From Anaspis maculata (taxonomy: Eukaryota > Arthropoda > Insecta > Coleoptera > Scraptiidae), in assembly GCA_949128115.1 (NCBI GenBank), contig OX421968.1, forward strand, positions 26,830,377 to 26,894,376: a stretch of DNA of 64,000 nt, in the 5' to 3' direction. Made by a program: the position numbers and the translations under genes. This document shows positions 9,681-61,410 of this stretch, piece after piece (positions within the stretch are counted from its first letter, which is position 1; every line of letters starts with the position of its first letter). Under the pieces are notes generated by a model. The model worked only from the letters and a program-made list of their open reading frames with translations. It was not told the DNA's origin and searched no databases.

Positions 9681-11717
9681 TAGCGCATTTTCCATCTTGA
9701 TGAAAATCGCTATTGCAACCGCTTTGTCCGTCCGTCCGTCCGTCCGTCCGTCCGTCCGTTCCTCGAACTCCTCCCAAACTAGACGACCTAGCTTTCTAAT
9801 TTTTTCGCTGTTACATAGCTGCCACTCCCAAAGGAGGGCTAGGCTATATTGGATGTCTACATTGCGCCGCCAACATAGAGAAAACCGCCCCCGATAAACT
9901 TGAAATAACATAATATTGCACTTTCTACCAGACCTGATGCTCTGGTGTTCTCATTTTTTGAATAATACATAGTTGCCACTTATAAACGTAAGCCAAGAAA
10001 CATTCCGTCTTCAATATGCGCCGCCGACATGGGAAAACTGCTAAAAACCGCCCCCAATCACTTTAAAATGAAAAACATAAACCCGAAGACATAGCGATCT
10101 GATTCTTTCGGTATATAGATAGCTGACTAAAAATAGGAAAGGATAGGCTACTTTTGGTTAGTCGCCGCCCCCAGATTCCGCCCCCAAACGATAAAAAGTG
10201 CAACTTTCATAAATGTTACTGATTGAGATGTTCCCTTAAAATTTAGGAACTGCCAACTCAAATTGTGCAACATTTGCTCAGCCGAACGCTGCCGCTCCCA
10301 CACGCCGCCCCCAAAGTAAGAGATAAATGAAAAACATGAACCCGAAGACATAGCGATCTGAGTTTTTCGCTAGATGGATAGCTGACTAAAAATGGGAAAG
10401 GATAGGCTACTTTTGATATGGCACCGCCTCCAGCTTCCGCCCCCAAAAGAAAAAAAGTGCAACTTTCAACAATTTTCACTGATTTAGCTGATAATGTTAC
10501 CTCGAACATTCAGAAACTCTTGACTCAAACTGTGCAAGAATTTCTTTGCCAAACTCTGCCGCTCCCACACGCCGCCCCCAAAGTGAGAGATAAATGTAAA
10601 ACATGAACCTGAAGACATAGCGATCTGATTCTTCCACTATATTGATAGCTGACTAAAATTGGAAAAAGATAGGCTACTTTTAATTAGCCGCCACCTCCAG
10701 CTGCCGCCTCCAAACTAAAAAAAAATGCAACTTTCACAATTTTCACTGATTGTCATATTCCCATTACATTTAGAAACTCCCAACTCAAACTGTGCAACAG
10801 TTACTTTGCCGAATGCTGCCGCCCCCACACGCTGCCCTCAAAGTGAGAGATGGATGAAAAACATAAATCCGAAGACATAACGATCTAATTCTTTCGCTAT
10901 ATGGATAGCTAACTAAAAAGGAAAAAAGCAGGCTACTTTTGATATGGCGCCGCCTCCAACTTCCACCCCCAAAAGAAAAAAGTGCAACTTCCAATAATTT
11001 CCACTGATTTACATTTCAATGTTACCTCAAACATTCAGAAACACCAATCTCAAACTGTGGAAGAATTTCTTTGCCAAACTCTGCCGCTTCCAACACGCCG
11101 CCCCCAAAGTAAGAGATAAATATATAACATAACCCTGAAGACATAGCGATCTAATTGTTCCGCTATATAGATAGCTGACTAAAAATGGGAAGAGATAGGC
11201 CACTTTTGATTAGTCGCCGCCTCCAGCTCCCGCCCCCAAACAAAAAATGCCACTTTCACAATTTTCACTGATTGTCATATTTCCTTAAACATTTAGAAAC
11301 TTCTAACTCAAACTGTGCAACAGTTACTTTGTCGAATGCTGCCACCAGTGCCACCCCCACACGCTGCCCTCAAAGTAAGAGATAAATGGAAAACATAAAC
11401 CCGAAGACATAGCGATCTAATTCTTTCGCTATATGGATAGCCGACTAAAAATGGGAAAGAATAGACTACTGTTGATTAGTCGCCGCTCCCAGATCCCGCC
11501 CTCAAACAAAAAAATATTGATGAGTGAAAGAATTATCATTCAAATCTATTTCATTGGCAAGTACCCCATTCTGATAACGAAATATCACAATGAGTTTCGA
11601 ATGAAGAAAGTGGGCAAGGAATGGTGTTCCTCCTTCAACCTTTCTTTACGTTCATAATATGCCTCTTTGAGAAAATGCGCTACTGAGACTCACGCACGTG
11701 AGGGCATACTCACTTGT
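9681..11717 (+). mobile_element. Helentron-like (HINE/DINE-1/mini-me type) element, copy A
   Basis: The 5' end TAGCGCATTTTC follows a T run and folds with GATGAAAATCGCT just downstream. A (GTCC)n microsatellite lies at 9726-9759. A subterminal GAAAATGCGCTA (11671-11682) is the exact reverse complement of the 5' end, followed by the hairpin CTCACG-CA-CGTGAG (11689-11702) and the end CTTG (11713-11716) before T residues. This set of asymmetric terminal inverted repeats, 3' hairpin, T-run target, GTCY microsatellite and central tandem repeats is what is described for Helentron-associated elements. No Rep/helicase is encoded, so it is non-autonomous. Copy B is its inverted sister 43 kb away. Confidence 0.75.
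10010..11510 (+). repeat. About 260-bp tandem array (about 6 units) inside copy A
   Basis: The word GAAGACATAGCGATCT recurs at 10085, 10343, 10611, 10871, 11137 and 11403 (one base differs at 10871), giving periods of 258-268 bp. Units carry GC-rich CCGCCTCC/CGCCCCC blocks between AT-rich stretches. Short ORFs across the units are shadows of the repeat. Confidence 0.9.
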
Positions 11718-14992: not shown

Positions 14993-14995
14993 TTA

Positions 14996-18290: not shown

Positions 18291-20320
18291 TAGCGCACTT
18301 CTCCAAACGGGAAGGCGCTTTTGTCCTCGCTTTGTCCGTCCGTCCGCCCGTCCGTCCGTCCGTCTGTCCGTCCGTCACAGCATCTAGTCCTAGACGGAAA
18401 GGTTTTTGCGAAAAATTTTCGCTCCAGTAGCTCATGACCTTGTATCCCGAACCAAGAAAAATCTCGACGAAATAATGATAAACAATTACAATAATAATTT
18501 AGTGTGGCGCGGCATCGCCGTCAAATGCTCCATTTCAGAAGCCGACCTGATCTCGAAAGTTATCACATGGGAACAAGTACCTGTTCTAATCATTTTACAA
18601 TAATACAATATGTGGAGTTATATTTAGAGAAGTTGAACTTCATTTTAACAAAAATTCCACATCGGTGCGAGGTACGGGTCGGTCAATACTTATGAATTTT
18701 TGAAAATGACTCCGAAGCTGCGACTCGGCCGTAAATGATTATTCGTTGTTTGCTGGCGCTTGGAATCTACTTCTCTGAACGGGACGGAATGCTTGACAAG
18801 AAAATTTCAACACAAATATAAGTAACTCATGGTTTTGGTACACGAACCAAGAAAAAGCTTGCCGAAATAACGATAAACAATTACAATAATAACATTTGAG
18901 TGTACGGCGGCGTCGCGGATTAATTGCTGAATTTCACATTTGAATGTAAGAAATTGGGACATGCGGAGAAGTACATATTTTTATGGAAATACATCTCCAC
19001 ATGTGGGGGGGTTATATTTAGTAAAGAATTTGAACTTTATTTTGACAAAAACTCCACTTCGATATGACCCCCGGATCATAAGTTAATAATTTTTTAAAAC
19101 GACCGCAGAGCTACGGCTCTTTAGAAGCTGTACGAATCACTACGGGCGTGTGTTTTGGTAGCGCATAGAGTAAGATAATGGCGCTTATATTATGGATTAT
19201 GGCCGGTTCCTTTCTTTTAATTTTTGATGTTTTCTTTATGGCGGATCAATTGCTAGATCATCACCGCCAGAACTGTAATGTTTGTTTTAATGAAATAAGG
19301 ATCAGAAATAAGAGCACTGATTTCTAGGAACATTAACTTTTTGCGTATTACATTACAAGGGCTTGAATAATGTCTTTGATGTTAGCGAGGGAGGGGATCG
19401 AAGCAAGAGTCTTGGAACTTTTTTCGATGGGTAGCTGATGTGCTCAAGGGTAGCCAATGGGCACTGTTTTTGTTATGCATGCATAGTTATCATTATTATC
19501 AGCAAAAAAAAATATATCCTGTGCGTTTAGAAGAAGTTGAACTTCTCCTCGGGGAATGAAGCTACACTACAGCCCTTAAACTTTATCCGATGGATAGCTT
19601 AGATCCTCAAGGACCAAATAGGCAGATTGGCTTAATAATTCCGCCGCCATCTTGGCCGCTATATTGAAATCTCTTACTAGTTGAACGATTGTCATGAATC
19701 TTGAAACTTATCCTTGTCTAGTACGATCATTCTCATTTTCTTAGCTGCCATATTGAAATTTCTTAATAATGACACGATTTTCACGAAACTTGGGACTTAT
19801 TCTTGTCCAGTAGGATCATTCTTATTTTCATGCTAAATGTCATGATTCCACCGCCATCTTGGCTGCCATATTGAAATCTCTTATTAGTGGACAATTGTCA
19901 TGAAACTTAGAACTTGATCTTGATCTTGTCTCATATGAACCTTCTTATTTTCAAGCTGAGTTTCATGATTCCGCCGCCATCTTGGCTGCCATATCAAGAT
20001 TTTTATCAGTGGAACGATTTCCATGGAACTTACCCTCGTTTCTTCGATGATTCTCATTTTCTAGCCAAATTTCAACATTCCGCCGCCATATTGAAATCTC
20101 TTATTACCGGAACGATTCTCATGAAACTTCGAACTTACCCTTGTTTAGTACGATCATTCTGATTTTCAAGCCGAGTTTAATGATTCTGCCGCTAGTTTGG
20201 TCGCCATATTGGATTTTTTTCCAAATAACGATAGAACCCTAATTAACATCTTGCGTCCAATAATCCTTCAAAAACGAAGTGCGCTACTGAGCCTCATGCC
20301 CATGAGGCATGTTCGCTTGT
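18291..20320 (+). mobile_element. Helentron-like element, copy C
   Basis: Starts TAGCGCACTTCTCC after a T run, with a 5' stem to GGGAAGGCGCT. A (GTCC/GTCT)n stretch spans about 18335-18373. Near the 3' end, AAGTGCGCTA is the reverse complement of the 5' terminus, followed by the hairpin CTCATG-CC-CATGAG and CTTG (20316-20319) before TTTT. The interior includes, at 19625-20235, a loose tandem array of roughly 110-120 bp (CCGCCGCCATCTTGGC ... CCATATTGAAATCTC). No Rep/helicase ORF. Confidence 0.75.
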
Positions 20321-27690: not shown

Positions 27691-28290
27691 TTGAAGACCT
27701 TCCCCAACCCAAGGTTCTTCTTTCTCTCGTCCCAAACTCTCAAATTATTTGTCTTTACAACAATCGTACATACACCTAGTGCTTTTTGATTTTAACGGTT
27801 TTTTTGGGGTTTTCTTTCTCGACCTTTTGCTTTTTGATCTTTTGTTTTTCGACCTATTGCTTTTCGACGTTTTGTTTTTCGACCTATTGTTTTTCGATCG
27901 TTTGTTTTTCGAAATTCTGTAATTCGTTATTATGTAATTTCGACCATATGTATTTCGATCCCTATCACTTTCGATATATTGTAAATTCGACCTTTTCTTT
28001 TTCGACCTCATGCATGCGACCTTTTGTTTTTCGTTCTTTTTTCCGTCACTCTACTTCCACGCCACAAGTTAGGTATTGGCCGCATCGTTTTATCCTGGTA
28101 TATTTCCGCATAGCGCTTGAATGCGTTGCAAATCCCCATGCTGGAGAGACATATCTAATCATTGGCGTGCAATACGCACCTAAATGTTTTTCAGTACACA
28201 AATTACAACAGTACATCAGTACAAAAATTATTTTTTGTCTTGGCCCTGCAGGCCCACACTTCATGAATGAGTTTTCGTATCTTTTTTTTT

Positions 28291-28390
28291 AGTGCATTTT
28301 TAGTGCATTTTTAGTGCAATTTCTTAAGAAAATGACGCTTATATGGCTGGTTTGTCTGTCTGCCTGTCTGTCTGTCTGTCCGTTTTCCAA
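28291..28390 (+). repeat. Degenerate Helentron-like 5' end with (GTCT)n
   Basis: TTTTTAGTGCATTTTTAGTGCA... followed about 60 bp later by GTCTGTCTGCCTGTCTGTCTG. The layout (TAGYGCA, spacer, GTCY run) copies the 5' end of elements A-E, but no 3' hairpin end was found nearby. It lies about 300 bp upstream of the Mitf exon. Confidence 0.4.
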
Positions 28391-28696
28391 CAGGAAAGAA
28401 TTTACGGGAATATCACTTTTTTCTTGACATTATTCTGCACTGACGTGACATTGACCGCTCAGGAGGAATGTCAATTTGGTTGGCATCGTTGACGGTGTTT
28501 ACAGTTTAAAACCATCTGCAGCCTGTCAGGGGACTGTTTGAGCTTTATTGGCGGACTCCCGAACTGTTTGGATTGACAGTGGATGGTTTTTTGAGATGCT
28601 TCTTGAGCACTCAATTTTACATCATGCATTATTGAATGACTTTCGAAATATTTGAGTTGTAAAAAGTAAAGGAGTACAAGAAATTTTGGTTTCTAG

Positions 28697-29222
28697 CCCG
28701 CCAAATTTGAAGACCGCTACACCGCTGTCGAGGACCCAACTGAAGTTGCAACTGATGAGGGACCAGGCGATGATGGAACAGGAGCGGCAGGCCCAGCAGA
28801 GGCGTCACCAGGTCGATCAGGCGATGCAGCAGAGGCCGCCGGCTTTGGCTATGAAGGTGCCTCTGCACAGCCTGGCAGTTGATGTGCCGCCCCAGGTCCT
28901 GCAGGTCCAGACAAAGCTCGCTAATCCGACACGGTACCATGTGATACAGAAACAGAAAAGTCAAGTGCGCCAGTATCTCAGTGAATCATTCCAAACTCCA
29001 GGCAATATCCCGTTTCTGAATAATCTGCACCAACAGAACAATGTCCCGCACCAAACGCACAGTGCACCGGGTATGGGCACCGTTGACTCGGTAGGATCCT
29101 TGATGGGATCGTCACAGCCGATCATCACCTCGCACTCGCACCCCTACCAAGTACCGTGTTCCAGTCCCGATGCCACAGCCATGTCTCCTGGTCTCAGTTC
29201 TGGAGCCACGAGCACGTCAGAA
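28697..29222 (+). CDS. Mitf: Mitf (MiT/TFE transcription factor), one internal coding exon
   Basis: The exon runs from an AG acceptor (TTTGGTTTCTAG, ending 28696) to a GT donor (GAA|GTAAGT, 29223). It starts at the third base of a codon and ends on a codon boundary, giving 175 complete codons. Two blocks identify it: SRTQLKLQLMRDQ, which lines up with the vertebrate TFEB N-terminus (Ser-Arg, then Gln-Leu six residues later), known to bind Rag GTPases at the lysosome; and QVLQVQTKLANPTRYHVI followed by VRQYLSES, the conserved block upstream of the activation domain. Between them is a Gln/Arg-rich stretch, and after them a Ser/Pro-rich low-complexity tail. The protein is a nuclear bHLH-zip factor controlling lysosomal and autophagy genes, but the bHLH-zip exons are not in this window. 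Neighbouring sequence is transposon-filled intron. The ATG must lie in an upstream exon or be unseen. Confidence 0.88.
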
Positions 29223-29317
29223 GTAAGTGTATAGTTTAATAACAGAGCTTCTAAACATCTGGTTCCGTTATCTGCTGATACATAAAAAACTACCTGCATA
29301 TTCTGTTAAAAAATTAA

Positions 29318-34127: not shown

Positions 34128-34635
34128 ACGTCGTTCCAAAGAATTTCGCCTTTTTTCAATTTGATGTAACTTTGGATTGCTGCAATAAATTTGTATTCTG
34201 TTTAAAGTGTTCGCTGACTTAATCATTTGGCTAACAGTCCGTTGTTTAGCAAAAAAAAAAGGTACTTCACATAAAGTTTGTACAGGGTGTTCAATAAGAC
34301 GCTCCCGTTCAAAAAATAATTTTTTTTCTTGAATTTTAACCACAAAGATGCCGAAGGTTAATCTTAAGGTAGAGTATGGTGTTTGAATTTTCAGCTTATC
34401 TCCTTTATTTACTGAGTGAACACAAATAATCACCTTTTTGGTTTTGCAGTGATAATTTCTTTCTTTGTTGACCGATTTTGAAAATTTGCGGCTCATAATA
34501 AAGCTGAAACTTTGAGTGGTGAAGCCTGAAGATCAAAATTGACTATACAAAACATTTTAGGTCAAGAGTTCCATCAAAGGTGATCCAAATCTGAAACGCG
34601 TTCGAAAAACCGTTTCGGAGAAGGATTTAGTAAAA
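34128..34635 (+). repeat. Left arm of an 8-kb-spaced inverted repeat
   Basis: Reverse complement of about 42520-43075, with point differences and a replaced stretch around TACAGGGTGTT (34282 here). The long minus-strand open frame across it (34496-33993) is not supported as a gene. Confidence 0.75.
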
Positions 34636-34680: not shown

Positions 34681-35909
34681 TTTTTAGCGCACTTTCCCCG
34701 AAAAATGGGAAAAAGGTGCTTTTAGCTTCACTTTATTCGTCCGTCCGTCCGTCTGTCCGTCCGTCCGTACCCGGGATAACTCCTCAGAGAAGAGAGATAT
34801 CGATGTGGTGTAAACGCTGATCAATAGTACATATGTCCAGGATGTCAAGTTGACTTTTGGTTTTTTGTTATTCTGCCGCCATATTTAATCCGCATTTTGA
34901 ATTTCTCTAAAAGTGATCAAATTGGAATAAAATTTGCAGGCAGTGTAAACCACATCAAGATCTATCCAATTTTTGACAATTGATGCCCCGCCGCCATCTT
35001 GTATTCTCCATATTGAACATGTTTCGAAGTGATAGAACTAGGAGAATTATTCCTCAACGAAAAGAGATATCGTCGATGTGGTGCAAACGCCAATGAAATG
35101 CGTACGTGTCCACCATATAAAGTTGACCAATGATTGTTGTCATTTGGCTGCCATCTTTAATCCGCCATTTTGAATTTCTCTAAAAGTGATCCGATTGAAA
35201 TGAAATTTGCAGGCAATGTAAACCACATCAAGATATATCCAATTTTTGACAATTGATGCCTCGCCGCCATCTTGTATCTTCCATATTGAACATGTTTCAA
35301 AGTGATAGAACTAGGGGAATTATGCCTCAATGAAAAGAGATATCGGTGTGGTGCAAACGCCAATAAAATGCGTAGATACGTGTCCACCATATAAAGTTGA
35401 CCAATGATTGTTGTCATTTGGCTGCCATCTTTGATCCGCCATTTTGAATTTCTTTGAAAATGGTCTGTTTTGAGTGAAATTTGCAGGCGATGTGAACTTC
35501 ATTAGGATACATCCAATTTTTGACAATTGATGCCCCACCGCCATCTTGTATTCTCCATATTGAACGCATTTCAGAGTGATAGAACTAGGAGAATAATGCC
35601 TCAACATAAAGAGATATCGATGTGATGCAAACGCCAATCGAATGCGTACGTGACCACCATATAAAGTTGACCAATTATTTTTGTCACTTGGCCGTCATCT
35701 TTGATCCGCCATTTTGAATTTCTCTGAAAGTAGTCCAATTTGAGTGAAATTTGCAGGCGATGGATGCCCCGCCGTCATCTTGTATTCTCTATTTTAAACA
35801 TGTTTCAAAATGATACAACTAGGAGAACTATGCCTCAACAAAAAGAGATATCGATGTGGTGCAAATGCCAATCAAATGCGTACATGTCCACCATATAAAT
35901 TTGACAAAT
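34681..35909 (+). mobile_element. Helentron-like element copy D, 5' part
   Basis: Starts TTTTTAGCGCACTTTCCCC with the 5' stem to TGGGAAAAAGGTGCT, then (GTCC/GTCT)n at about 34739-34770. It is followed by an array of about 270-bp units: ATATCGATGTGG-type words at about 34797, 35068, 35340, 35613, 35848. The units contain GCCGCCATCTTG and CATATAAAGTTGACCA. The array breaks at 35909 where a 4.5-kb inverted-repeat element starts, and the Helentron-like sequence resumes at about 40450. Confidence 0.75.
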
Positions 35910-36705
35910 AGTGCAGTAAAGATAGTCAAAAAAGACCCCAAACCGTGAAAAAATTAATTCATGAAATTTTATAGCAGATATCGATTCAGAATTTCACCCT
36001 CTACCACATACTCAAAATCCCCGAAAATCCCAGTTGAGCATTCTTCTTGCGGCGCTGTCAAAGTATATCGTGTTTGCTGCAACTAGTCCGAAAATTGTAT
36101 TCTCGTTTTTGTCACACTAGAGCTACACTGTTGGCTCAGAGCTGTTGGTATACATTGCAGGGCATGACCAGACCTTCGTTTGAACTTCTAACTCGTATTT
36201 TCCGGAAAAAAAACACGGAAGTCGCTTTAATCCTCAATTAACAGTGTTGATTAAAGATAATCCGAGGGTTAGTAACCAAGTTTATTAAAATCTGTTTGAT
36301 TTGTGATGGAGGCATGAAATTTGGTATGAGTGGTCTTCATGGTCTTCTTTTCAAATGCAAACACGACGACTCGCCATATTTGGGTTAGGGGGGCCTAAGG
36401 GCCCCCTTAAAAATTTGAAGTCTCAGTAACTCTCACAAATCACCGGTAAATATCGTCACACATTTCAAAAAGTAATCATTTGACTCTACACCAAACCTTG
36501 ACAAAAGACACAACAGTTGTCGCCATGAACGCATTGTTTTTCGTGTGAAATTTTTTTTTCTTCGAAGTGTCAAAAAAACCCACAGTTTTAAATGATTTTT
36601 TAATCTAAGAAACGGTGAGTTGATCTGCTGTGTATCATTATTCACTAATTTGTATTTGCCGAAGCTATTCATAAAGTCTGTTTTTTGATACTGTCATTCT
36701 AGGGA

Positions 36706-37209
36706 TGACAGCTCCCGAAGAAATGACCCAATTTAAGTGTGAAGTTCAACAGCGGTTTTTAATTGTTCCCAATCAATATGATCGACAATTTATGAATGGA
36801 TGGATAGCTGGAACTGTTCTGTAACCTAATTTTATATGACTACACGCGAAACCAAGCGCAAAAGCAAAGGAAAACATTTTTTGAAGTGAAACTTCTATTC
36901 TCGCGCCTAGGTCACAACACACAACTAACGCAGAACCACACATGGATGTGAAATTGGTTCATAGCATTAGTGGTTGTAACGAACGCCTGTAACGTTGTCT
37001 TGTCTGACCTTGGGGTGACCAGCGTCGTCCCAGAAAATTGAAGAATAAGCTGTTGCGGCGTTCGCCGCGTTCAGTTCTATTTTTTACTAACCGCCGACAC
37101 TGGACTGCTCTTCGTGTTGTCGTACTGTTGGCCCGACAGGAATGGTTCTCGACTTGGCTTGAATAGATTCGAGCGGATGTGATTTATTATAGGGATAGGG
37201 AGGTATATT
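36706..37209. other. Inner spacer, no recognised gene
   Basis: Left part of the spacer between the arms of the 4.5-kb element; no ORF or repeat supported. Confidence 0.5.
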
Positions 37210-37420
37210 CAGGGCCGGGCCTAGCAGGCGTGCAGTGCGTTTCGGCGCGCATCAGACGGGTATAGCAGGCGGCAAGTTATAGGGGCGGTAATATAATAAT
37301 AAAGTTGAATTTCAAAGGATTCTTTTCACTCCCGCATTTGGTGGGGCTCTCCACTGCCGGTGAGGGAGGCGGCAGTCTTTCGGTGGCACGCAGGCGGCAA
37401 ATAGGCCAGGCCCGGCCCTG
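37210..37420. mobile_element. hAT-type MITE with 8-bp target duplication
   Basis: Ends CAGGGCCGGGCCT / AGGCCCGGCCCTG, flanked by perfect 8-bp direct repeats GGTATATT (37202-37209, 37421-37428). An 8-bp duplication and CAGGG-type ends are characteristic of hAT. The 211-bp body is GC-rich compared with its surroundings and non-coding. Confidence 0.9.
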
Positions 37421-37455
37421 GGTATATTCCGCACACCCAAATGTAGACACAACGT

Positions 37456-37700
37456 TCAGGTACCTATGTACCTATTAAGCAGGAACGATCTTGAAGTTAG
37501 GGCGTCGACCAAAAACCTGTATAGGGCTGAAATCATCTTTATGTTGGTACTAATCAGAATCTCGTGTTGGTCCAATGGTAAGACCTGGCTTCCTAGAACT
37601 GGTCCTAGCCTAAATTCTCTGTATAGTGGGCAGTCAAAGATTATGTGACCAAGAGTTTCATGTGAGTCAAGGTTACACATTGTGCACCTGTAGCTGGATA
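37456..37700 (-). pseudogene. Non-LTR retrotransposon ORF2 C-terminus (zinc knuckle), antisense
   Basis: The minus strand encodes YRCTMCNLDSHETLGHIIF followed by DCPLYREFR, a C-x2-C ... H-x4-C zinc-binding knuckle of the kind at the C-terminus of many non-LTR reverse transcriptase polyproteins. It is in antisense to the ZnF ORF that follows and lies inside (or across the left border of) the segment bounded by the 14-bp duplication. No polymerase domain accompanies it. The apparent last residues read through the duplicated target sequence, so the natural end is uncertain. Confidence 0.7.
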
Positions 37701-39146
37701 GCTGGTCCTTACGGGTCAGTAGATTTCAGTTTTGGTCTACTCTTCCAGTGCAACCTCCAAGTGGTGAGGACCGGGCAACGTAATTGAAAGTTGGTGGACG
37801 AGTATTTTACGGCTAAGCGCAAAAGACGTGTGTGGACGTAGTTTCAGTAAGTGAGGTCCTTGCGATGAAGAAGCGAACCACCGTCACGCCCTCTGGTAGC
37901 CAAACATCAACCGGGCGAACAAGAACGGCTACCAACACCGTGGGAAGTACTCTCCCGCGAGGCGTCGCCAATAAGGCGTCAGGGAGCAGGATTGAACGCA
38001 AGAACTCTGACGGGCCGAAGACAATAAATCCCCGGTTACCACCTGTTCCCGTCACTATTTCTCCCACCTCTTCCAACAGGCATACCACACCTTACGTCTG
38101 TGATGGCGAAGGTTGCGGTAAGAGATTCGAATCATCGTCTGGTCTGGGAAGACACCGCCGAGGGGAATGCAAGCCGCGCACTCAGTGTGACTATTGTCCC
38201 GCAAGGTTCAACACCTACTCCGGGGTCCGCCAACACGAGCGACAAAGGCACCCCGCTGAGTTCAACAATGCCGGTGAAGCTAGTTTAGCGGAATCCGATG
38301 CAATCATGTTGGAGCGGATTGCTAAGGCGGAAGCGAGTAGTACCAACGGGTACTTTTATAAGGAGGCGATGCAGGCTACCGGCTTGACCAGGGATCAGAT
38401 TCGCCATCGGCGTCTCAAGCCATCCTATGCCGGATACCTATCGAGGGCAAGACAGGGAAGTGGGGTTCCACAGCCCACCAAGGCCTTCAAGCCTTTGGCC
38501 CCTTCGAGCCACGGTCGCCTTCTTCGTACCCGTGTGGTGCCGGCTCTGAGTGCCCCGAAGCGGGACCCATGCCGGAAGTCCGATGCGTCGGTTACGGGGA
38601 TTCCATCTCCCGTGACCCAAGTAATCTCTCCCTCCCCTAAAGAGTCACACGCGACTGTTGCTGAGAATACCCCTGTGTGTGAGGCGACCAGTGTTGGACC
38701 GAGCAATCCGGTGCCGATCGGCTTGCGAGGGCTTTCCCAACAGCCTGGTCCGTCCGGCCTGGGACGAAGGTGTGTCAGGGATCTAGAGAATGCCAGGCAG
38801 ACGAGCTCGTGCTCTTCGGACTCGGACTCAGATCATGGTGGAGACGTCGAATACGTCTCGATGCGATATCGAAGGGTTGCGTGGGCTGATTTGTATGGGT
38901 GGCTCTTTTACTTACCCGATTTTAATGTGTTGTCATGTGAAAATATTATTAATGTAGCTCACGTAAACAACGTTCTGTATATGTTATTGTTATTGTTCTC
39001 TGTGTGAAAGTAGAGGCGTTGTCTCGCTTTTTTAAATTTTTAGACACTACACTTTTTCTATCACACTTTTTTCTCTACTGCTTAGGATTCTTTTGTGTAT
39101 CATGAAAGCAATAAACCTATTCTATTTTATTCTATTATACTCTATT
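37486..39146 (+). mobile_element. Internally deleted R2-like non-LTR retroelement with 14-bp duplication
   Basis: CTATTAAGCAGGAA occurs at 37472-37485 and again at 39147-39160, bounding a retroelement-like insert. It holds an antisense knuckle fragment at the 5' side, a zinc-finger N-terminal ORF, and a 3' UTR with AATAAA at 39110-39115 and a TTCTA-type repeat tail. Reverse transcriptase and endonuclease domains are missing. This is compatible with an internally deleted derivative, with the 5' antisense piece added by template jumping, 5' inversion or an earlier rearrangement. Confidence 0.65.
37865..39007 (+). pseudogene. R2-superclade-like N-terminal ORF (zinc fingers + Myb-like)
   Basis: From the ATG at 37865 the frame runs 380 residues. 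A Ser/Thr/Pro-rich start is followed by CDGEGCGKRFESSSGLGRH and the C2H2 finger CDYCPARFNTYSGVRQHERQ-RH (C-x2-C-x12-H-x4-H), then a helical segment ending TGLTRDQIRHRRLKPSY, similar to the Myb-like DNA-binding motif of R2-type elements. A Pro/Ser-rich linker and an acidic SDSDSDHGGD stretch follow. The polymerase domain is absent: after about residue 345 the frame runs into non-conserved sequence and stops at 39007, just before the 3' UTR. In intact relatives this N-terminus recognises the insertion target. The copy cannot retrotranspose by itself. Confidence 0.7.
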
Positions 39147-39160
39147 CTATTAAGCAGGAA

Positions 39161-39664
39161 AGCAGGGGTGGATGATTAAAGCCTAGAGGAGAAGAAGAAT
39201 TTTCGACTATTGAGGCTGAAACAGTTGCTTATTTCGCGTCGCTCACCATCATAAAATTTGTGCCCCTAGGGTGTGTTGAAAATATTTCTATACCGTGTAT
39301 CCACTCGAACTGAGTGCTTTGAAGTATTCCACGCCTCAATCCTCATTCTTCGTGCCTTCTACTTGACAACTGAGATCATATTGACTTTTGTCTATACTCT
39401 TTAGTCTGTATTTACTGTTGTTTTGCCAAAGTAGCATGAAATTTGGTGCAATTCTAACAGTGACAGGTGACGGTTGAAAAAATTTCTTTCGGGGCTTTCG
39501 CGCATCACTCCTCGCATCTAGTTATACTCAATAAAATTATAAAACAGTTGAAGCTATCCACCCAATAATAAATTGTCATTAATATCAATTGGTAACATTG
39601 AAAAAAACGCTGCTGAACTGAGCACTTGAATTGGCTGGTTTCATCTCGAATTGTTGCTTCTAGA
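39161..39664. other. Inner spacer, no recognised gene
   Basis: Sequence between the non-LTR insert and the right arm of the 4.5-kb element; no supported feature. Confidence 0.5.
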
Positions 39665-40446
39665 TGTCAATATGAAGAAATGGACTTCATCAATGGCTTC
39701 GGCAGATACGAATTAGCGGATAATGATATGCGGAAGATAAATTTATTCCTCTAGTACATGAAAAAATTATAAAAACCCAATTTTTTTTGACATTCCGAAG
39801 AATTTTTTTGTCATAAGGAAGAACAGTGCGTACATGGTGACAACTGGTGTGTCTCTTGTTGAGATTTAACGTAGAGTCGAATGATTACTTTTTGAGATGC
39901 GTGACAATTATTTTAATGGTGGTTTGCATGAGTTTCTGCAACTTCAATTTTCAAGGGGGTCCCTAAGCCCCCCTAACCAAAATATGGCGAAACGCTATGT
40001 CTACATTTGAAAAGAGGACCATGAAGACCACTCATACCAAATTTCATGCCTTTATCACAAAAAGAACAGATTTTATTAAATTTGGTCACTAATCCTCGAA
40101 CTATACTTGATTACCACTGGTAATTGGAGATTAAAGCGAGTTACGTGTTTTCTTCTGCGGGAAATGGGATTTCAGCGGTTCAGATGACGTTCTGGTCATG
40201 CCCTGGAGTATATACCAACAGCTCTGAGCTAACAATATAGCTCTAATGTGACAAAAGCGAGGATACAATTTTCGGACTTGTTGCAGCAAACATGATATAC
40301 TTTGACAGCGCCGGCCGCAAGAAAAATGCTCAAATGGGATTTTCGGGCATTTTAAGTACATGGTAGAGGATGAAATTCTGAATCGATAACAGCTTTAAAT
40401 TTCATGAATTAATTTTTTCAACCCCAAAACCTATCTTTACTGCACT

Positions 40447-40795
40447 GAAATGATTTTTTGAATTTCTCTGAAAGTGGTCCGATTTGAGTGCAATTCACAG
40501 GCGATGTGAACTTTATCAAAATATCTCCGATTTTGGACAAATAATGCTCTGCCGCCATATTGTAATTTCTCATCACTTGACAATTTTCATGGAGCTTGGA
40601 ATTTACCCTTGTCTCTAGTAGGTACGATCATTTTGATTTTTGAGCCAAATTTCATGATTCTGACGCTATTTTGGCCGCCATATTGAAATTTCTGCCTAAA
40701 TAACGGTAGAACCCTAATTAATATCTTGCGTTCACTAATCCTTCAAAAAGGAAGTGCGCTACTGAGTCTCATGCCCATGAGGCATATTCGCTTGT
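40447..40795 (+). mobile_element. Helentron-like element copy D, 3' part
   Basis: Continues the GCCGCCATATTG-type repeat, then AAGTGCGCTA (complement of the 5' terminus of copy D), the hairpin CTCATG-CC-CATGAG and CTTG (40791-40794) before TT. With 34681-35909 it reconstitutes one element of about 1.58 kb. Confidence 0.75.
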
Positions 40796-40947: not shown

Positions 40948-41190
40948 GCTGCGTCTACGTCTGCGTCTGCGTCTGCGTCTGTGTCTGTGATCTTCCACGA
41001 TAACTGCCGTAACGTTGACTGGATCGACTTGATATTTGGTATACAAACATGGTTGTTTCCTGAAAAGAGCCCATTAGTTTTTGGCTGTCATCTGTCAAAC
41101 CCAACTGTCACTATCATCAAATGTCAGAAGCTATATCTCACGGAACTCAACTTGCAATATGTCATTTGAAAGCCCTTGAAAAACTGTATT
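40876..41190 (+). repeat. (GCGTCT)n microsatellite with conserved 3' flank
   Basis: A GCGTGC/GTCTGC run (about 40876-40988) is followed by a segment homologous, in inverted orientation, to about 57340-57550 (GATAACxxCCxxAxxxxTGAxxxGATCGACTTGA; TTTGGCTGTCATCTGTCAAA). Both copies place a GTCTG-type microsatellite at the same side, so this is a second microsatellite-bearing repeat family, perhaps distantly related to copies A-E. Reading frames of Ala-Ser or Arg repeats here are artefacts. Confidence 0.6.
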
Positions 41191-42519
41191 CAGAACAGTT
41201 GGAAACATTGCCCTATCTGTCATCTGTCAAATAATAAAAAATGTTAAAGTTCAAAACTTTACCAATTAATTATTTAAAATCTATCCGATGGATTGGAACC
41301 AGATTTGGCAGGAAGCAACACAACAAAAGAGTCAAATTGAGGCCGCAGTTGCAGTTTTCTACCATTCTCCAGTTGAGCGTAATGAATTTTCGAAATTTCT
41401 CCTGGCCGTTGCCACTCAGGAGGGGCTCTCGCCGGTGTTTCGACCAGCACGACTCGCTTTTGTAGCAGGACTCCACTCAAAAATTTATTCCTGCTCGGGG
41501 ATCGACTTTTTTTTGGAAATTTCAACTGATATCGAAAGTAGATTGTATTGAGCGTCGTGCAGGTCTATTTTCAGAGTTGACACGGTTTCGGTTTTCCGAC
41601 TGTAATTTTTTCAAAATGAAATTTGCACATTCCGTGAATTTGAGAAAAACGCAATGCAAACTTCTACATGCGGTAAGCCCCACGAAATATTAATCTTAGG
41701 TGCAGACAGGCTGTGAATAAAAGTTGAAGAAAAGATTGAGCTAATTTTTGGAGGAAAAATTTTCGAAATCGGATCAACAGTTGCCGAGTTTTCCTCTCTG
41801 GAAAAACTGCAAATTTTCCAACTTTTTATTCCGTGAACAGATTTCTTGGAATTGTTTTTTTTTTAGAGAATAGATAACTGGTTCTTGAACATTTTCCAAT
41901 AATTTCTCTCCAATTTCCCGGAAATTTTCCTCCTGAAAATATAAAACCACTCATGCGATCGTACAAATTAAGCGGTTCTGTCACGATAATTACCGAATTA
42001 TTGATCCGATCAAATCGAAATCAGGTACGGAGGCCTAAGTTCAGCCTGGAATGTTCTGATTAGACTTTGGGTGGATGATTTTGATCGGAAGCCCTCAGGT
42101 GGCAAATTGGGTCTGGGTTTGTCTGCCCAAGCTCTAAATTGAAAATATAGAGTTGAAATTTGACACACAGATGCAGTGAAAGTTTTCAATCAAGTTTTTG
42201 TAATTTCATCATCATATCTGAAGTAGGAACAAAAATTTCAATAAGGAACCAGCATTGCATTTTTGAGATATCACAACAGTTAGCTACCTAGTTCTACCTT
42301 TTGGATCATTTCATCACCTTGGAAAACTGACCTAACCTGTCATTTTTTCTGTCCGCTCAACAATGGATGCAGGATGCTCGCTAAACGCTCGACTAAATAG
42401 AATTTTTTCATCAATTTCCAAATCGAATCGCCCCCTCCCGAAAGGACACTTCGATCAAAATCATTACTGACGTCTCTGGATACCGCCGGGAAAGTTTTGT
42501 GTCGCTCCACAACAGATTT
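41191..42519. other. No recognised gene
   Basis: Several short frames at 41241-41551 overlap on both strands without a domain. No TIR or tandem structure seen. Confidence 0.4.
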
Positions 42520-43075
42520 TTTAAATTCATCTCCAAAACGATTTTTCGGGAGCGTTTTAGATTTGGGTCACCTTCGATGGAACTCTTGACCTGAAATGTT
42601 TGTTTTAAGTTAATTTTGATCTTCAGGTTTTATCACTCAAAGTTTCAGCTTTAATTTGAGCCGCAAATTTTCAAAATCGGTCAACGAAGAAAGAAATTAT
42701 CACTGCAAAACCAAAAAGGTGATTTCTCGGGTGATTTTTTGTGTTCACCTGTGAATGAAAGAGATAAGCGAGGAGATAAGCGAAAAATTCAAACACCACC
42801 GTGTACCTTAAGATCTAACTTCGTCATCTTTGTGGTTAAAATTCAAGAATTTTTTTTTTCAACGGGAGCTTCGTGACGGTTTACAGATTTTGCACTGTTT
42901 TGTTTAACACCCTGTACAAACTTCATGTGAAGTACCTAGTGTCTTACGAAACCACGGACTGATAGTCAAAGGATTAAGTCAGCGAACACTTCAAACGGAA
43001 TACAAATTTATTATAGCAATCCAAAGTTACATCAAATTGAAAAATGACAAAAATTTTTGGAACGACGAATTGACT
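42520..43075 (-). repeat. Right arm of the 8-kb-spaced inverted repeat
   Basis: Reverse complement of 34128-34635. It contains AACACCCTGTACAAACTTC at the place of TACAGGGTGTT in the left arm. The arms differ enough that the duplication is not recent. Confidence 0.75.
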
Positions 43076-44544: not shown

Positions 44545-44890
44545 TTAACGTCAGCCCATTTCCGCAACGAGGCCCAACACCGACCCCGGTGAATGCTTTT
44601 CTCCACTATACTGGAAATTTTGCCGAGCCCCTGTGTGTTCCAACACAGAGTAGGGATTTGTAACGACCACCAACATCGCATGGGGGCCGGCACCATCGTT
44701 CGTATTTTACGTGCTATGCGACACACGGCACGTCTTGCATTTAGCATTCCAGCATTCAGCACAAGCATTACTAAATCAAAGAGCTTGTTTTGGGAACGAG
44801 GATCCGAGCGCCCACAGTGGGAGAGTGGGACTCGAACCCACGACCCCTGGAGTGGTAGTCGAACGTGCTGACCACCACACCACAAGCTCT
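44545..44890 (-). mobile_element. tRNA-derived SINE (family 1), fullest copy
   Basis: On the minus strand it starts near GTGGTGTGGTGGTCAGCACG (box A region), continues GTTCGACTACCACTCC and box B GGTTCGAGTCC, has the same body as the 16.7-kb copy, and ends CGTTAAATAAAATAATAGAA. Possible eroded duplication around it (CTTTTTCAGGAT / TTCTTTCACGAT). Confidence 0.8.
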
Positions 44891-47766: not shown

Positions 47767-49192
47767 TACTGCCTTCCAAAAAAAGTGCAACACCATGAAG
47801 CCGTGGATCAATTTTATTCAAATTTTCGCAAAACATGTGTTTTAACAATAGAAACAAACGATTAGATTCTGGAAATCGTAATACAAGGAACTTCAGAAAA
47901 AATTAATAATGTGTCGCTCCTCCACGATTTGCCCGACACTCATTAACCCTACGAGGCATGCTTTCAATCAAGTGGTCGATTGCCGCTTGTGACAAGCCAT
48001 CCCATGCCTCTTGCAAGGCCATACGGAGATCTTCCAAGTTGTTGGGAGGATGGCGTAATTGCCCCACCTTTCTTCCCATCATATCCCACACGTGTTCGAT
48101 GGGCGACAAATCAGGAGAGCAAGCAGGCCATGGAAGCACGTCAACGTGTGCATCTTCCAGGAACTGCATTGAAGCTCTTGCCGTATGAGGACGTGCATTG
48201 TCTTGCTGGAAAATAGGGTTGTTGAGCCCCTGAAGGTATGGAAGGCAAACGGGTTCCAGCACACTCGCGATGTAAGATGCAGCTGTCATAGTGCCCTCAA
48301 TGAACACCAATGGTGACCTGCTTCCATGGCATATTGCTCCCCAAACCATCAATCCGGGTCCGGGTGTACGGGCAGTGTGTCGCTCGGCAAAAAATTCGGG
48401 ATTATGCCGTTCCCCACGAAAGCGCCTCACCCTCCCCCGGCCGTCATGAGCCCAAAGACAAAAGCGGGACTCGTCACTGAAGACCACCCGATGCCATTCT
48501 TGGACCCAGTTTCTGCGCTCATTGCACCACTCCAATCTTCTGGCCCGGTGAACAGGAGTGAGGGGAAGGGTTAACAGCGGACGATAAGAACTTAGCCCAA
48601 AAGACCTAATTCTTCTATAGACCGTGCTCATTGAGATTGGGCGTCCTATAGCTGCAACCCACTCGTTTCCGACTGCTCGGGTTGTCGTAAATCGGTCTCT
48701 TACAGCCGCTACTCGAAGACGTTGATCTTGACGTACCGTGGAGGCTCTACGACGACCAGATCCATTCCGTCGCCGATAATTGGCCTCCTCGTTCCATCTC
48801 CGCCACCATCTCATCACAGTCGAAGCATTGCAACCAACAAGTCTCGCAATTCTTCGATACGAAATCCCCTCATTTTTTAAGCCAATAATCTGTCCCTTCT
48901 GGAACTCGGTTAAATGATGGTACTGCCGAGGTTGACGGGCTCTTGGCATTTCAGGACTCTTGGGGTTCACTATTGAAACTTATTGCAAAAAATGTGGTTT
49001 GTAACAACCAGGAAAAACGAAAAACAATTTCTTGTGTTTTACGGTTACCAAGGAGAAAAACAAAACAACTACAGCGCCTAGATATCCAGAATGTTAATCA
49101 TTTGTTAGTGTAGATGAAATACTTGTTTTGTGAAAATTTGATCAAAATCAGCCAACGGCATCGAGGTGTTGCACTTTTTTTGGAAGGCAGTA
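47767..49192 (-). mobile_element. Tc1-like transposon, apparently complete
   Basis: TIRs TACTGCCTTCCAAAAAAAGT... (about 28 bp, perfect) at both ends, with TA outside. The right arm of the surrounding palindrome (50505-50510) has the uninterrupted TATATA target. The element of about 1.43 kb contains one uninterrupted transposase ORF, so it may be recent and potentially active. Confidence 0.92.
47903..48949 (-). CDS. Tc1-family DD34E transposase, intact
   Basis: A 348-residue transposase read from the ATG at 48949 (seven in-frame codons precede it, but without ATG). Cut-and-paste transposase acting in the nucleus on its own TIRs. The N-terminal part is a paired-type helix-turn-helix (FQKGQIIGLKNEG ... 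SYRRIARLVGCNASTVMRWW), followed by a basic linker (RRRNGSGRRR) like the AT-hook/nuclear signal of the family. The catalytic triad is visible: VVFSDESRF, IFQQDNARPHTA and SPDLSPIEHVW, with 34 residues between the second Asp and the Glu (DD34E, Tc1 group rather than mariner DD34D). Length is normal for the family and there is no stop or frameshift. Both TIRs are present (47767 and 49192 sides). It lies alone in its element, in antisense to the window. Confidence 0.95.
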   Translation of the reverse strand: MPRARQPRQYHHLTEFQKGQIIGLKNEGISYRRIARLVGCNASTVMRWWRRWNEEANYRRRNGSGRRRASTVRQDQRLRVAAVRDRFTTTRAVGNEWVAAIGRPISMSTVYRRIRSFGLSSYRPLLTLPLTPVHRARRLEWCNERRNWVQEWHRVVFSDESRFCLWAHDGRGRVRRFRGERHNPEFFAERHTARTPGPGLMVWGAICHGSRSPLVFIEGTMTAASYIASVLEPVCLPYLQGLNNPIFQQDNARPHTARASMQFLEDAHVDVLPWPACSPDLSPIEHVWDMMGRKVGQLRHPPNNLEDLRMALQEAWDGLSQAAIDHLIESMPRRVNECRANRGGATHY

Positions 49193-52678: not shown

Positions 52679-54702
52679 CAAGTGAGTATGCCTCCACGTG
52701 CGTGAGTCTCAGTAGCGCATTTTCTCAAAGAGGCATATTGTGAACGTAAAGAAATTTGGTTGAAGGAGAAACACCATTCCTTGCCCACTTTCTTCATTCG
52801 AAACTCATTGTGATATTGTGTTATCAGAATGGGGTACTTGCCAATGAAATAGATTTGAATGAAAATTCTTTCACTCATCGATATATTTTTTTGTTTGAGG
52901 ACGGGAGCTGGGAGCGGCGACTAATCAACAGTAGTCTATTCTTTCCCATTTTTAGTCGGCTATCCATATAGCGAAAGAATTAGATAGCTATGTCTTCGGG
53001 TTTATGTTTTCCATTTATCTCTTACTTTGAGGGCAGCGTGTGGGGGTGGCAGCATTCGGCAAAGTAACTGTTGCACAGTTTGAGTTAAGAGTTTCTAAAT
53101 CTTTAAGGAAATATGACAATCAGTGAAAACTGTGAAAGTTGCATTTTTTGTTTGGGGGCGGGAGCTGGAAGGCGGCGACTAATCAAAAGTGGCCTATCTC
53201 TTCCCATTTTCAGTCAGCTATCTATATAGCGGAACAATTTGATCGCTATGTCTTCAGGGTTATGTTTTACATTCATCTCTTATTTTGGGGGCGGCGTGTG
53301 GGAGCGGCAGAGTTTGGCAAAGAAATTCTTCCACAGTTTGAATTGGGAGTTTCTGAATGTTTGAGGTAACATTAAAAAATGTAATTCAGTGGAAATTATT
53401 GAAAGTTGCACTTTTTTCTTTTGGGGGTGGAAGTTGGAGGCGGCGCCATGCCAAAGGTAGCCTATTCTTTCCCATTTTTAGTTAGCTATCCATATAGCGA
53501 AATAATTAGATCGTTATGTCTTCGGGTTTATGTCTTTCATTCATCTCTCACTTTGAGGGCAGCGTGTGGGGGCGGCAGCATTCGGCAAAGTAACTGATGC
53601 ACAGTTTGAGTTGGGAGTTTCTACATGTGAGGGAAATATGACAATCAGTGAAAGTTGTGAAAGTTGCATTTTTTTTGTTTGGAGGCGGCAGCTGGAGGCG
53701 GCGGCTAATAAAGTGGCCTATATTTTTCCAATTTCAGTCAGCTATCAATATAGTGGAAGAATTAGATCGCTATGTCTTCAGGTTCATGTTTTACATTTAT
53801 CTCTCACTTTGGGGGCGGCGTGTGGGAGCGGCAGAGTTTGGCAAAGAAATTCTTGCACAGTTTTAGTCAAGAGTTTCTAAATGTTCGAGGTAACAGTATC
53901 AGCTAAATCAGTGAAAATTGTTGAAAGTTGCACTTTTTTCTTGTGGGGGCGGAAGCTGGAGGCGGCGCCATATCAAAAGTAGCCTATCCTTTCCCATTTT
54001 TAGTCAGCTATCCATCTAGCGAAAAACTTAGATCGCTATGTCTTTGGGTTCATGTTTTTCATTTATCTCTTACTTTGGGGGCGGCGTGTGGGAGCGGCAG
54101 CGTTCGGCTGAGCAAATGTTGCACAATTTGAGTTGGCAGTTCCTAAATGTTTAAGGGAACATCTCAATCAGTAACATTTGTGAAAGTTGCACTTTTTATC
54201 GTTTGGGGGCGGAATCTGGGGGCGGTGACTAACCAAAAGTAGCCTATCTTTTCCCATTTTTAGTCAGCTATTTATATACCGAAAGAATCAGATCGCTATG
54301 TCTTCGGGTTTATGTTTTTCATTTTAAAGTGATAGGGGCGGTTTTTAGCAGGTTTTTCATGTCGGCGGCGCATATTGATGACGGAATGTTTCTTGGCTTA
54401 CGTTTATAAGTGGCAACTATGTATTATTCAAAAAATGAGAACATCAGATCTGGTAGAAAGTGCAATATTATGTTATTTCAAGTTTATCGAGGGCGGTTTT
54501 CTCCATGTTGGCGGCGCAATATCGACATCCAATATAACCTAGCCCTCCTTTGGGAGTGGCAGCTATGTAACAGCGAAAAATTAGAAAGCTAGGTCGTCTA
54601 GTTTGGGAGGAGTTCGAGGAATAGACGGACGGACGGACGGACGGACGGACGGACAAAGCGGTTATTGCAATAGCGATTTTCATCAGGATGGAAAATGCGC
54701 TA
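52679..54702 (-). mobile_element. Helentron-like element, copy B
   Basis: Inverted sister of copy A. At 52679-52682 the complement of the 3' CTTG; hairpin and GAAAATGCGCTA-type subterminal repeat follow. At 54697-54702 is the 5' end (TAGCGCATTTTC on the minus strand) with its stem and a (GTCC)n run at about 54622-54655. It has the same internal array of about 260 bp as copy A. Confidence 0.75.
52885..54330 (-). repeat. About 260-bp tandem array inside copy B
   Basis: TATGTCTTCGGG-type words at about 52990, 53250, 53516, 53773, 54040 and 54298 give periods of 257-267 bp, matching the array of copy A in inverted orientation. Confidence 0.9.
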
Positions 54703-57285: not shown

Positions 57286-57289
57286 ACAA

Positions 57290-58669: not shown

Positions 58670-58799
58670 GGGTAGTATTAATTAAAAAATAAGCATAAGC
58701 ATTTGCTTGGATTTCATAGGCGTTGCCAGGGAAAGTCTGCTCAGCAACTTCTTAAAGATCTAAGCAAATGCTTATGCTTATTTTTTATTGATACTACCC
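58670..58799. mobile_element. 130-bp MITE with about 43-bp TIRs
   Basis: Ends GGGTAGTATTAATTAAAAAA and the complement of GGGTAGTATCAATAAAAAAT, with TIRs running through AAGCATAAGCATTTGCTT. AAT lies on both sides (58667-58669, 58800-58802), a possible 3-bp duplication. Confidence 0.75.
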
Positions 58800-59079
58800 A
58801 ATGGTCACACCATCGGAACGTGAACAGGCCAGGTGGCTCCCAGATCAACGCGATCTTTGATTCTTGACAACAGTGAAAACAGTGAGAACACGACTGAGGA
58901 TGTCATTCAACTCTGCATGTCTTGACCATCGTCCTGAACCTGAATTTTTGGAACAACCGAGGGAACAACGAAGAAGAGGATGTAATAAACCAGTCTCGTC
59001 CTCGTCAACCAGATCACTACATTTACAAATGAACTTCTGGAAAATACATAGGTACGTCGAGTCTTGAAGCGATGTAGAA
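58800..59079. other. No recognised gene
   Basis: No supported feature in this short spacer. Confidence 0.4.
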
Positions 59080-61410
59080 GCGTAAAAATTTGATCAAGAG
59101 ATTGATAGATGTCAACTTGAGTTTCTACAGGGTGTTAAAGAAAGTAGTGCAACATTTATAAAGTTTGACATACTCCCATTTGAAATAAAACTGTTTCTTT
59201 TGAATTTCGACATCAATGGCATGTAGCTAAAGTTCATATCTCGAAACGGTTTTTGATTTATCTCTCTATCCTATCTCTTTTATTTACAGGGTGGTATCAA
59301 AAAAAACGACTTTTTGGTCTTCTGGTGATGATATGTTCCCTTCTTTACCAATAATTTTCTGAATCCAGGGCTCATATTGAAGCTTTAGGCTTAGGTAAGA
59401 CAACTCAATAAACATAATCGACTCAAGACCAACATTCAAAATATAGGGTGGCATCAAAAGTGACATATAAATATATCTGTCCAGGAATCCGACCGGGTGG
59501 AGAATTGAACGAAAATCAACATTGTTTTCGGATGAGGCATTCATTCTGAACACTCTTTGATGTTCCATGATTGATTGTCACCAGAATGATCGATAGAGGG
59601 ACCAAATTAGAATTAAGTGTTTCTGAGGAAGAATCAGCTTTCTCGCTGATCTTAAAATGTTCGTAACCAATGATACAAAATTCGAAACAATCGAAAACAG
59701 ACAGGTGAGTTATAGCGCTGCTTCTCCTTGGAAAACATGCGACTGCAATTTGAACCCTCCATCCAAAGTTCTTGCCACCATCAATCATGAAACATCAAAG
59801 AGTGTTCAGAATAAATGCCTCATCCGAAAACAATGATTATTTTAATTTAATTGTCTATACCCGGTCGGATTCTCATATGTCACTTTTGATGCCACTCTAT
59901 ATTTTGAATGTTGGTCTTGAGTCGATTATGTTTATTGGGTTTTCTTACCTAAAGATTCAGCTTCAATATGAGTCCTGGTATAGAAAATTGGTAAAGAAGG
60001 AAAATGTTATCACCAAAAGACCACAAAGTCGATTTTTCGATACCACTCTGTGAATAAAAGAGATGGAGAGATAAATCAACAAGCGGATATGCCTCATGGG
60101 CATGAGGCTCAGTAGCGCACTTCCTTTTTGAAGGGTTAGTGAACGTAAGATGTTAATTAGGGTTCTACCGTTATTTGGGCAAAAATTTCAATATGGCGGC
60201 CAAAATAGCGTCAAAATCATGAAATTTGGCTCAAAAATCAAAATGATCATACTATAGACAAGGGTGAGTTCCAAGTTTCATCAAAATCGTTCCACCAATA
60301 AGAGATTTCAATATGGCGGCCAAGATGGTGGCAGAATGTTGGAATTCGGCTGGAGAATGAAAATGATCATACAAAACAAAGGTAAGTCCCAAGCTCCATG
60401 AAAATCGTTAAGTGATAAGAAATTTCAATATGGCGGCCAAGATGGCGGCAGAGCATCATTTGTCCAAAATCGGATGTATTTTGATGAAGTCCACATCGCC
60501 TGTGAATTTCACTCAAATCGGACCACTTTCAGAGAAATTCAAAATGGCGGCCAAATGACAAAAATCATTGGTCAAATTTATATGGTGGACACGTACGCAT
60601 TTGATTGGCATTCGCACCACATCGATATCTTTTTTCGTTGAAGCATAATTCTCCTAGTTCTATCACTTCGAAACATGTTCAATAGTGAGAATACAAGATG
60701 GCGGCGGGGCATCAATTGTCAAAAATTTGATGTATCTAATTGAAGTTCACATCGCCTGCAAATTTCACTCAAATCGGACCACTTTCAGAGAAATTCAAAA
60801 TGGCGGATCAAAGATGGCGGCCAAGTGACAAAAATTATTGGTCAACTTTATATAGTGGTCACGTACGCATTTGATTGGCGTTTTTACCACATCGATATCT
60901 CTTTTCGTTGAGGCATAATTCTCCTAGTTCTATCACTTCGAAACATGTTCAATAGTGAGAATACAAGATGGCATCGGGGCATCAATTGTCGAAAATTGGA
61001 TAGATCTTGATGTGGTTTACATTGCCTGCAAATTTCATCTCAATCGGATAACTTTTAGAGAAATTCAAAATGGCGGCAGATAACAAAAAACCAAAAGTCA
61101 ACTTGACATCCTGGACATATGTACTATTGATCAGCGTTTACACCACATCGATATCTTTCTTCCCTGAGAAGTTACCCCGGATACGGACGGACGGACAAAG
61201 TGAAGCTAAAAGCGCCTTTTTCCCATTTTTTGGGAAAGTGCGCTAAAAACCGTTTCGAGATATGAACTTTTGCTACATATCATTGATGTTGAAATTCAAA
61301 AGAAACAGTTTTATTACAAATGGGAGTATGTCAAACTTTATGAAAGTTGCACTACTTTCTTCAACACCCTGTAGAAACTCAAGTTGACATCTATCAATCT
61401 TCGAATTGAT
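59080..61410. repeat. Nested palindrome split by Helentron-like copy E
   Basis: Outer CAGGGTGTTAAAGAAAGTAG (59128) pairs with the end at 61371, TA on both sides; inner CAGGGTGGTATCAAAA (59287) pairs with the end near 60050. Arms otherwise continuous; the right arm is interrupted at 60080-61245. The left arm keeps the uninterrupted target CGGTTTTTGATTTATC (about 59247-59262). Confidence 0.85.
60080..61245 (-). mobile_element. Helentron-like element, copy E (with empty site)
   Basis: Minus-strand element of 1.17 kb: 5' end TAGCGCACTTTCCC with stem to GGGAAAAAGGCGCT near 61215, short (GTCC)n at about 61181-61193, arrays with GCCGCCATCTTG units like copies C and D, subterminal AAGTGCGCTA, hairpin CTCATG-CC-CATGAG and the CTTG end at 60083-60080. 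It lies in a T run (on the minus strand) of a palindrome arm whose partner arm keeps that run uninterrupted. Confidence 0.85.

Follow-up and report, generated by a model that had tools for sequence, protein, structure and literature searches.

The window analysed here is a stretch of 64,000 nucleotides from the beetle Anaspis maculata (GenBank assembly GCA_949128115.1, contig OX421968.1, positions 26,830,377 to 26,894,376 of the forward strand). It contains five elements, copies A to E, that we classify, with a probability of roughly 0.92, as Helentron-associated (HINE/DINE-1/mini-me) elements, non-autonomous rolling-circle transposons that here belong to two families. This classification is based on their shared anatomy, thousands of exact ends dispersed over the genome, the type-matched pairing of type-A ends, an empty site of copy E and the non-coding nature of the copies. 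It is further supported by a Helentron-type Rep-PIF1 protein in the same genome and by agreement with the definitions published in PMC4067079, PMC2374699 and PMC7492417. The same class had been proposed in a first-pass annotation of the window, and nearly every testable sequence feature agrees with it, including the empty site without target duplication. The copies and their parts are located as follows (positions of the window):

9681 to 11716, plus strand: copy A, a HINE-like element with type-A ends
9681 to 9692: 5' subterminal inverted repeat (subTIR) of copy A
about 9702 to 9712: putative 5' inverted repeat of copy A
9726 to 9759: GTCC array of copy A
10066 to 11514: central repeats of copy A, unit of about 267 bp
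11671 to 11682: 3' subTIR of copy A
11689 to 11702: 3' palindrome of copy A
11713 to 11716: CTTG end of copy A
18291 to 20319, plus strand: copy C, with type-C ends TAGCGCACTTC and GAAGTGCGCTA, a 7-bp palindrome stem in its fold and central repeats with a unit of about 89-123 bp
34685 to 40794, plus strand: copy D, with type-C ends and central repeats of about 274 bp
35911 to 40445: insert splitting copy D, an element with inverted ends GTGCAGTAAAGATAG and CTATCTTTACTGCAC
52679 to 54702, minus strand: copy B, with type-A ends and a palindrome arm that reads CGTGGAG, not CGTGAG
52886 to 54324: central repeats of copy B, unit of about 258 bp
60080 to 61245, minus strand: copy E, with type-C ends and central repeats of about 270 bp and about 120 bp

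Inspection of the five copies disclosed one common order of parts: a T-run and the 5' subTIR come first, then a repeat partly complementary to it, a GTCY array and central tandem repeats, and finally the 3' subTIR, a palindrome, CTTG and T. This bears out the earlier description of five copies with a T-run, a TAGCGCA 5' end, a GTCY array, a 3' complement of that end and a CTTG end, copy D being interrupted. The boundaries first given were mostly right, with two kinds of correction: the last base of CTTG is 11716 in A, 20319 in C and 40794 in D, and TAGCGCA of copy D runs from 34685, a start at 34681 taking in Ts. The GTCY microsatellite and the central tandem repeats, a HINE/DINE-1 trait, are present in all five copies; the array of copy E consists of three GTCC units only, and the repeat units measure 258-274 bp in A, B, D and E. 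Exact matches within the window place the type-A ends TAGCGCATTTTC and GAAAATGCGCTA in copies A and B only, and the type-C ends TAGCGCACTT and AAGTGCGCTA in copies C, D and E only, which confirms the division of end-types reported before. The list of open reading frames (ORFs) holds none of at least 110 aa inside A, B, C or E, and at the 5' end of copy A there is an overlap with one minus-strand ORF of 127 aa.

The complementarity between the two ends was measured as the longest exact complement of the first 14 bases within the last 70, and set against 2000 dinucleotide-shuffled versions of those 70 bases. It extended over 12 bp in A and B, 11 bp in C and 10 bp in D and E, lengths that were reached by none of the 2000 shuffles for A to D and by one for E. 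These lengths agree with the subTIR trait of about 11-15 bp, with D and E one base below the 11-bp rule for naming families in the excerpts of PMC4067079. The 5' ends of all five copies fold with the adjacent partly complementary repeat (z -1.42 to -3.65), while the longest exact match of the 5' inverted repeat taken alone is not significant, being equalled in 299-755 of 2000 shuffles. By sequence, every copy carries a palindrome after its 3' subTIR and before its terminus. In the 3' folds it appears as a 7-bp stem for C and E; for A, B and D, the best fold lacks it.

Alignment of the complete copies shows that they do not form the single five-copy family assumed at first, but two families that have only their ends and the GTCY stretch in common. 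Copy B matches copy A end to end, with 94.4% identity across 2,050 aligned columns. Between A/B and C/D/E, BLAST returned only a GTCY stretch of 28-38 bp, the short ends also being alike by eye. D and E are alike in segments (86-89%), and the resemblance of C to D and E lies mainly in the last ~245 bp (83-87%). Helentron families that are otherwise dissimilar yet have near-identical subTIRs are already described in the excerpts of PMC4067079.

The flanks of copy E, when joined, were found again at a paralogous site in the same window:

59099 to 59575, plus strand: paralogous empty site of copy E, with 415 of 480 aligned columns identical and 28 gap columns

Here the filled site GGTTTT[TAGCGC...CTTG]TTGATTT corresponds to the empty site GGTTTTTGATTT. 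Outside AGCGC...CTTG, the filled site holds seven Ts and the empty site five, so the insertion of E added a net two Ts and no other duplication. This is the T-rich or TT target without target duplication of HINE/DINE-1 elements, seen at one aligned empty site. In agreement with it, TT directly follows CTTG in all 12 located type-A 3' ends, where the search pattern did not require it, and TTTT precedes TAGCGC in all eight type-A 5' flanks. The possibility that A to E are miniature inverted-repeat transposable elements moved by a DDE transposase is very remote in our estimate. Such elements would likewise have short complementary ends, lack coding capacity and reach a high copy number. Against this, the one aligned site of E shows no target duplication, the complementary segment is subterminal on the 3' side, and the copies have a 3' palindrome and a T-run target.

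Searching the 757.8-Mb assembly (50 contigs) revealed 2,921 exact type-A 5' ends with the inner repeat (1454 and 1467 on the two strands), 2,852 exact type-A 3' ends (1399 and 1453) and 2,296 exact type-C 3' ends with an unbroken stem (1185 and 1111), while the reversed-pattern controls of all three had no match genome-wide. The type-A 5' pattern fixed positions 1-10 and allowed C or T at position 8, which was T at all 100 places listed. End pairing was evaluated on contig C1 up to 35.46 Mb, a stretch with 100 type-A 5', 90 type-A 3' and 79 type-C 3' ends, starting from type-A 5' ends only and looking downstream on the same strand. A type-A 3' end followed within 5 kb in 69 of 100 cases, at a median of 1,992 bp, and a type-C 3' end in none. 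Widening the limit to 10 kb raised these numbers to 71 and 1, the latter at 7.7 kb. On the opposite strand no pair was found, and random 3' positions gave a mean of 0.6 and a maximum of 3 in 200 trials. Type-A ends therefore travel together, which is expected of any family and is by itself no demonstration of selection on pairing. On the type-C side, four 3' ends examined with about 1.2 kb of sequence did not reach a 5' end, and two were extended further: one (L066/L070) carries the 5' end TAGCGCACTTC, and the other (L065/L069) has no 5' end of the TAGCGCACTTC type in the stretch read. The copy L066, with L070, lies antisense inside a frame reading KGDKKNLSNYRPIAILPNISKIFEKL, which we take to be reverse-transcriptase-like.

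Paired changes in the subTIRs and in the hairpin stem had been taken in the first-pass annotation to point to selection on base pairing. This claim is weakly supported, since A/B versus C/D/E is one contrast, since joint inheritance keeps ends matched and a single protein could equally well have its binding site, identical in sequence, at either end, and since the two-sided stem change concerns a single pair that is of CpG type on both sides. The hairpin CTCACG/CGTGAG given for A and B is present in copy A, but copy B reads CTCACG/CGTGGAG. In 12 further type-A 3' ends the palindrome was CGTGAAGG eleven times and CGTGGAGG once; the outermost pair of that stem is thus a C-A mismatch in the A family. 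It forms in 1 of 14 type-A copies, copy A itself, so that CGTGAG and the perfect stem of A represent a private change. What stands of the two-sided change is one pair, C-G in type A versus T-A in type C, and both sides differ by CpG-type transitions (ACG/ATG and CGT/CAT). Within the type-A family, we sampled 16 stretches from the 100 listed places, eight of them differing at 5' position 11 or 12 and eight unchanged there, and located 3' ends in 12 (seven and five, respectively). All seven variant copies with a located 3' end retain GAAAATGCGCTA unchanged, a result that covers positions 11-12 only since the search pattern held positions 1-10 constant.

These data could also be explained without selection on pairing between the ends. 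We consider it fairly probable that the elements are HINEs in which one protein recognises a duplex motif common to the two ends and that joint inheritance does the rest; inverted identical binding sites would yield the same pattern, the contrast comprises two TAGCGCA end-types only, and the constancy of GAAAATGCGCTA in the seven variant copies is in line with it. The foldable 5' hairpin of the five window copies nevertheless makes some pairing plausible, and the 5' variants of single copies could be decay after insertion. As for the stem, two independent CpG-type transitions in place of a compensatory change are conceivable, and we lean somewhat against them. Type A does have CpG on both sides where type C has TpG and CpA, and a single pair is involved; however, the unbroken type-C stem occurs at 2,296 places, though the search pattern itself required it, and both types preserve the CpG of the TAGCGCA core. 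For fly species, compensatory differences in the stem had also been proposed earlier, so that the idea of stem covariation was already in print for such elements in 2008 (PMC2374699).

Searching the genome for a longer relative encoding Rep and helicase, as had been suggested, led to a Helentron-type element whose ends differ from the TAGCGCA ends. The domain Helitron_like_N (PF14214) gave 18 genome matches. Twelve are loci nearly identical to one another, a further one is related to them at about 90%, four are weak, and the remaining one, the strong match P0002, contains the canonical Helitron motif RGLPHAH. The protein of the 12 loci (P0001, part of a 2,411-residue frame) matches PF14214, the PIF1 helicase PF05970 and a C48-type protease; its match to the endonuclease PF14529 (E 0.041, 14.2 bits) is under the cut-off of 27.4. 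Its motif 2 (VEFQMRGSPHEH, RGSPHEH) has the Helentron form RGSPHxH as given in the excerpts of PMC4067079. Two copies, H18 and H19, start at the same base, TT followed by ACTTTCCCGG, and their flanks differ. In H19, 3' ends CCGGGAAAGTTTTGTGTCGCCCCACAACAGA followed by TT lie directly before 5' ends, and its long Rep-PIF1 element was read for 20.5 kb from the 5' end, the 3' end lying beyond. Positions 461-2470 of L047 (C1:6821460-6823469) form a head-to-tail array upstream of a long Rep-PIF1 frame, with a Helentron-type 3' end followed by a 5' end, twice. The subTIR ACTTTCCCGG/CCGGGAAAGT is unlike TAGCGCATTTTC, so that these ends, self-complementary and built on the same plan, are a third set.

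As a partner of A to E, the Rep-PIF1 element (L010-L021) was rejected, two of its copies having one and the same first base and ends of another sequence. In the surroundings of 12 of 18 PF14214 matches (L027-L045), the exact 7-mer TAGCGCA, sought on both strands, occurred in L033, L034 and L045 only, and no pair enclosed a Rep match; this search by exact 7-mer would miss ends with a changed core. In L034 the 3' end lies 390 bp before the Rep fragment, which places the fragment outside the TAGCGCA element. A third variant of the 3' end, GGAAAATGCGCTACCGAGCCGCATGACGGTGAGGGCACATTCATTTG with Ts after it, is present in the same locus at position 5033 (C7:13589033). The genome also has more diverged Helentron fragments with 57-79% identity (20 of 1386 candidates scored), for example at C1:19204123 and C1:19668956. 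The transposase that moved the TAGCGCA families may have gone extinct or diverged too far. A more speculative reading, which we regard as unlikely, is that a separate Helentron, since lost, served each family, so that the sequence of the ends and the specificity of the transposase diverged together within one genome; it would account for unrelated interiors with related ends (~2,300-2,900 exact each) and for the lack of joining between type-A 5' and type-C 3' ends in the tested stretch.

By analogy with known members of the family, the most likely mechanism is mobilisation in trans by a Helentron Rep-helicase, which would nick at the T-run/TAGCGCA 5' end; one strand would be peeled off as a single-stranded intermediate, its displacement stopping at CTTG, close to the 3' palindrome. 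The subTIR could mark both ends for the same protein, or pair in the single-stranded intermediate, and the product would insert between T residues. Several observations weigh against the Helentron-associated classification. The folding of the 3' ends of A to E is not clearly above that of shuffles (z -0.03 to -2.14), and the consensus 3' palindrome of the A family is short, at about 4-5 pairs. Within 5 kb, 31 of 100 type-A 5' ends had no exact type-A 3' end, and the empty-site evidence comes from one aligned site. Lastly, no autonomous TAGCGCA-ended element was found around the 12 of 18 PF14214 matches searched, and the trans-acting protein is one that we infer.

Two further elements lie in the window:

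28281 to 28381, plus strand: 5' end of element G, in which TTTTTAGTGCA occurs three times in tandem, accompanied by a repeat of partial complementarity and an array of GTCT/GTCC
40965 to 42516, plus strand: element F, start approximate, with the 3' end CCGGGAAAGTTTTGTGTCGCTCCACAACAGA followed by a T-run

Element F lies close to the right end of copy D, and its 3' end (42486-42516) is one base off the 3' ends CCGGGAAAGTTTTGTGTCGCCCCACAACAGA seen in H19; owing to this same kind of 3' end, F is a HINE-like relative of the Rep-PIF1 element. A segment to the left of D (34428-34629) recurs in inverted orientation to the right of F (42522-42724), with 89% identity. For element G, no matching 3' end was found within the window. 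Two type-C copies elsewhere, L065 and L066, carry an internal GTCT stretch that resembles the start of G, and some type-C copies therefore look nested or mosaic. The insert in copy D contains a 391-aa frame (37832-39007) with C2H2-like fingers by eye. An unbroken 355-aa frame at 47903-48970 (minus strand) is presumably Tc1/mariner transposase-like, and a 182-aa frame at 28686-29234 (plus strand) we assume to resemble the N-terminal region of transcription factors of the MITF/TFEB type. The only Rfam match at the gathering threshold was a tRNA at 44825-44882, and a scan of viral contigs for the exact 3' end gave no match.

By themselves, both families extend the HINE/DINE-1 anatomy to one more genome, and as a kind of element already described in flies, mites and oysters they are a real but ordinary finding. 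Thousands of copies, two end-types, the third end set of the Helentron-type element and findable empty sites together offer a natural data set on which end positions rolling-circle transposons need. We know of no subTIRs in the bat Helitron Helraiser. The model applied here to the 3' palindrome derives from Helraiser, for which the excerpts of PMC4778049 report experimental evidence of a 3' hairpin acting as terminator; unlike A to E, it is a canonical Helitron with TC and CTAG ends. Related asymmetric ends are described for fungal Helitrons (PMC5148889, excerpts).

Closer relatives are the HINEs, which were defined together with Helentrons by Thomas et al. 2014 (PMC4067079). As described in the excerpts of that paper, HINEs of Metaseiulus occidentalis and other species resemble A to E in their subTIRs, 3' palindrome, unmodified T-rich target and boundary Ts, and also in having near-identical subTIRs across dissimilar families and Helentrons in the same genome. 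They differ in that the mite subTIRs are described as themselves palindromic and in that, around the 12 of 18 PF14214 matches searched here, no partner for the TAGCGCA families turned up. Cg_HINE of the Pacific oyster, by its description in the excerpts of PMC7492417, shares the subTIR, a GTCY-like microsatellite, satellite-like central tandem repeats, the 3' palindrome, a T-rich target without duplication and probably the inverted repeat, and is apparently set apart by other sequences. DINE-1/mini-me of Drosophila, whose anatomy, GTCY repeat and compensatory stem changes appear in the excerpts of Yang & Barbash 2008 (PMC2374699), has a subTIR of different sequence. It is nevertheless like A to E in its 13-bp subTIRs, probably in the partial inverted repeat beside the 5' subTIR, and in the GTCY-rich microsatellite, variable central repeats, the lack of a significant ORF, insertion at TT and a 3' stem-loop with a species-specific stem.

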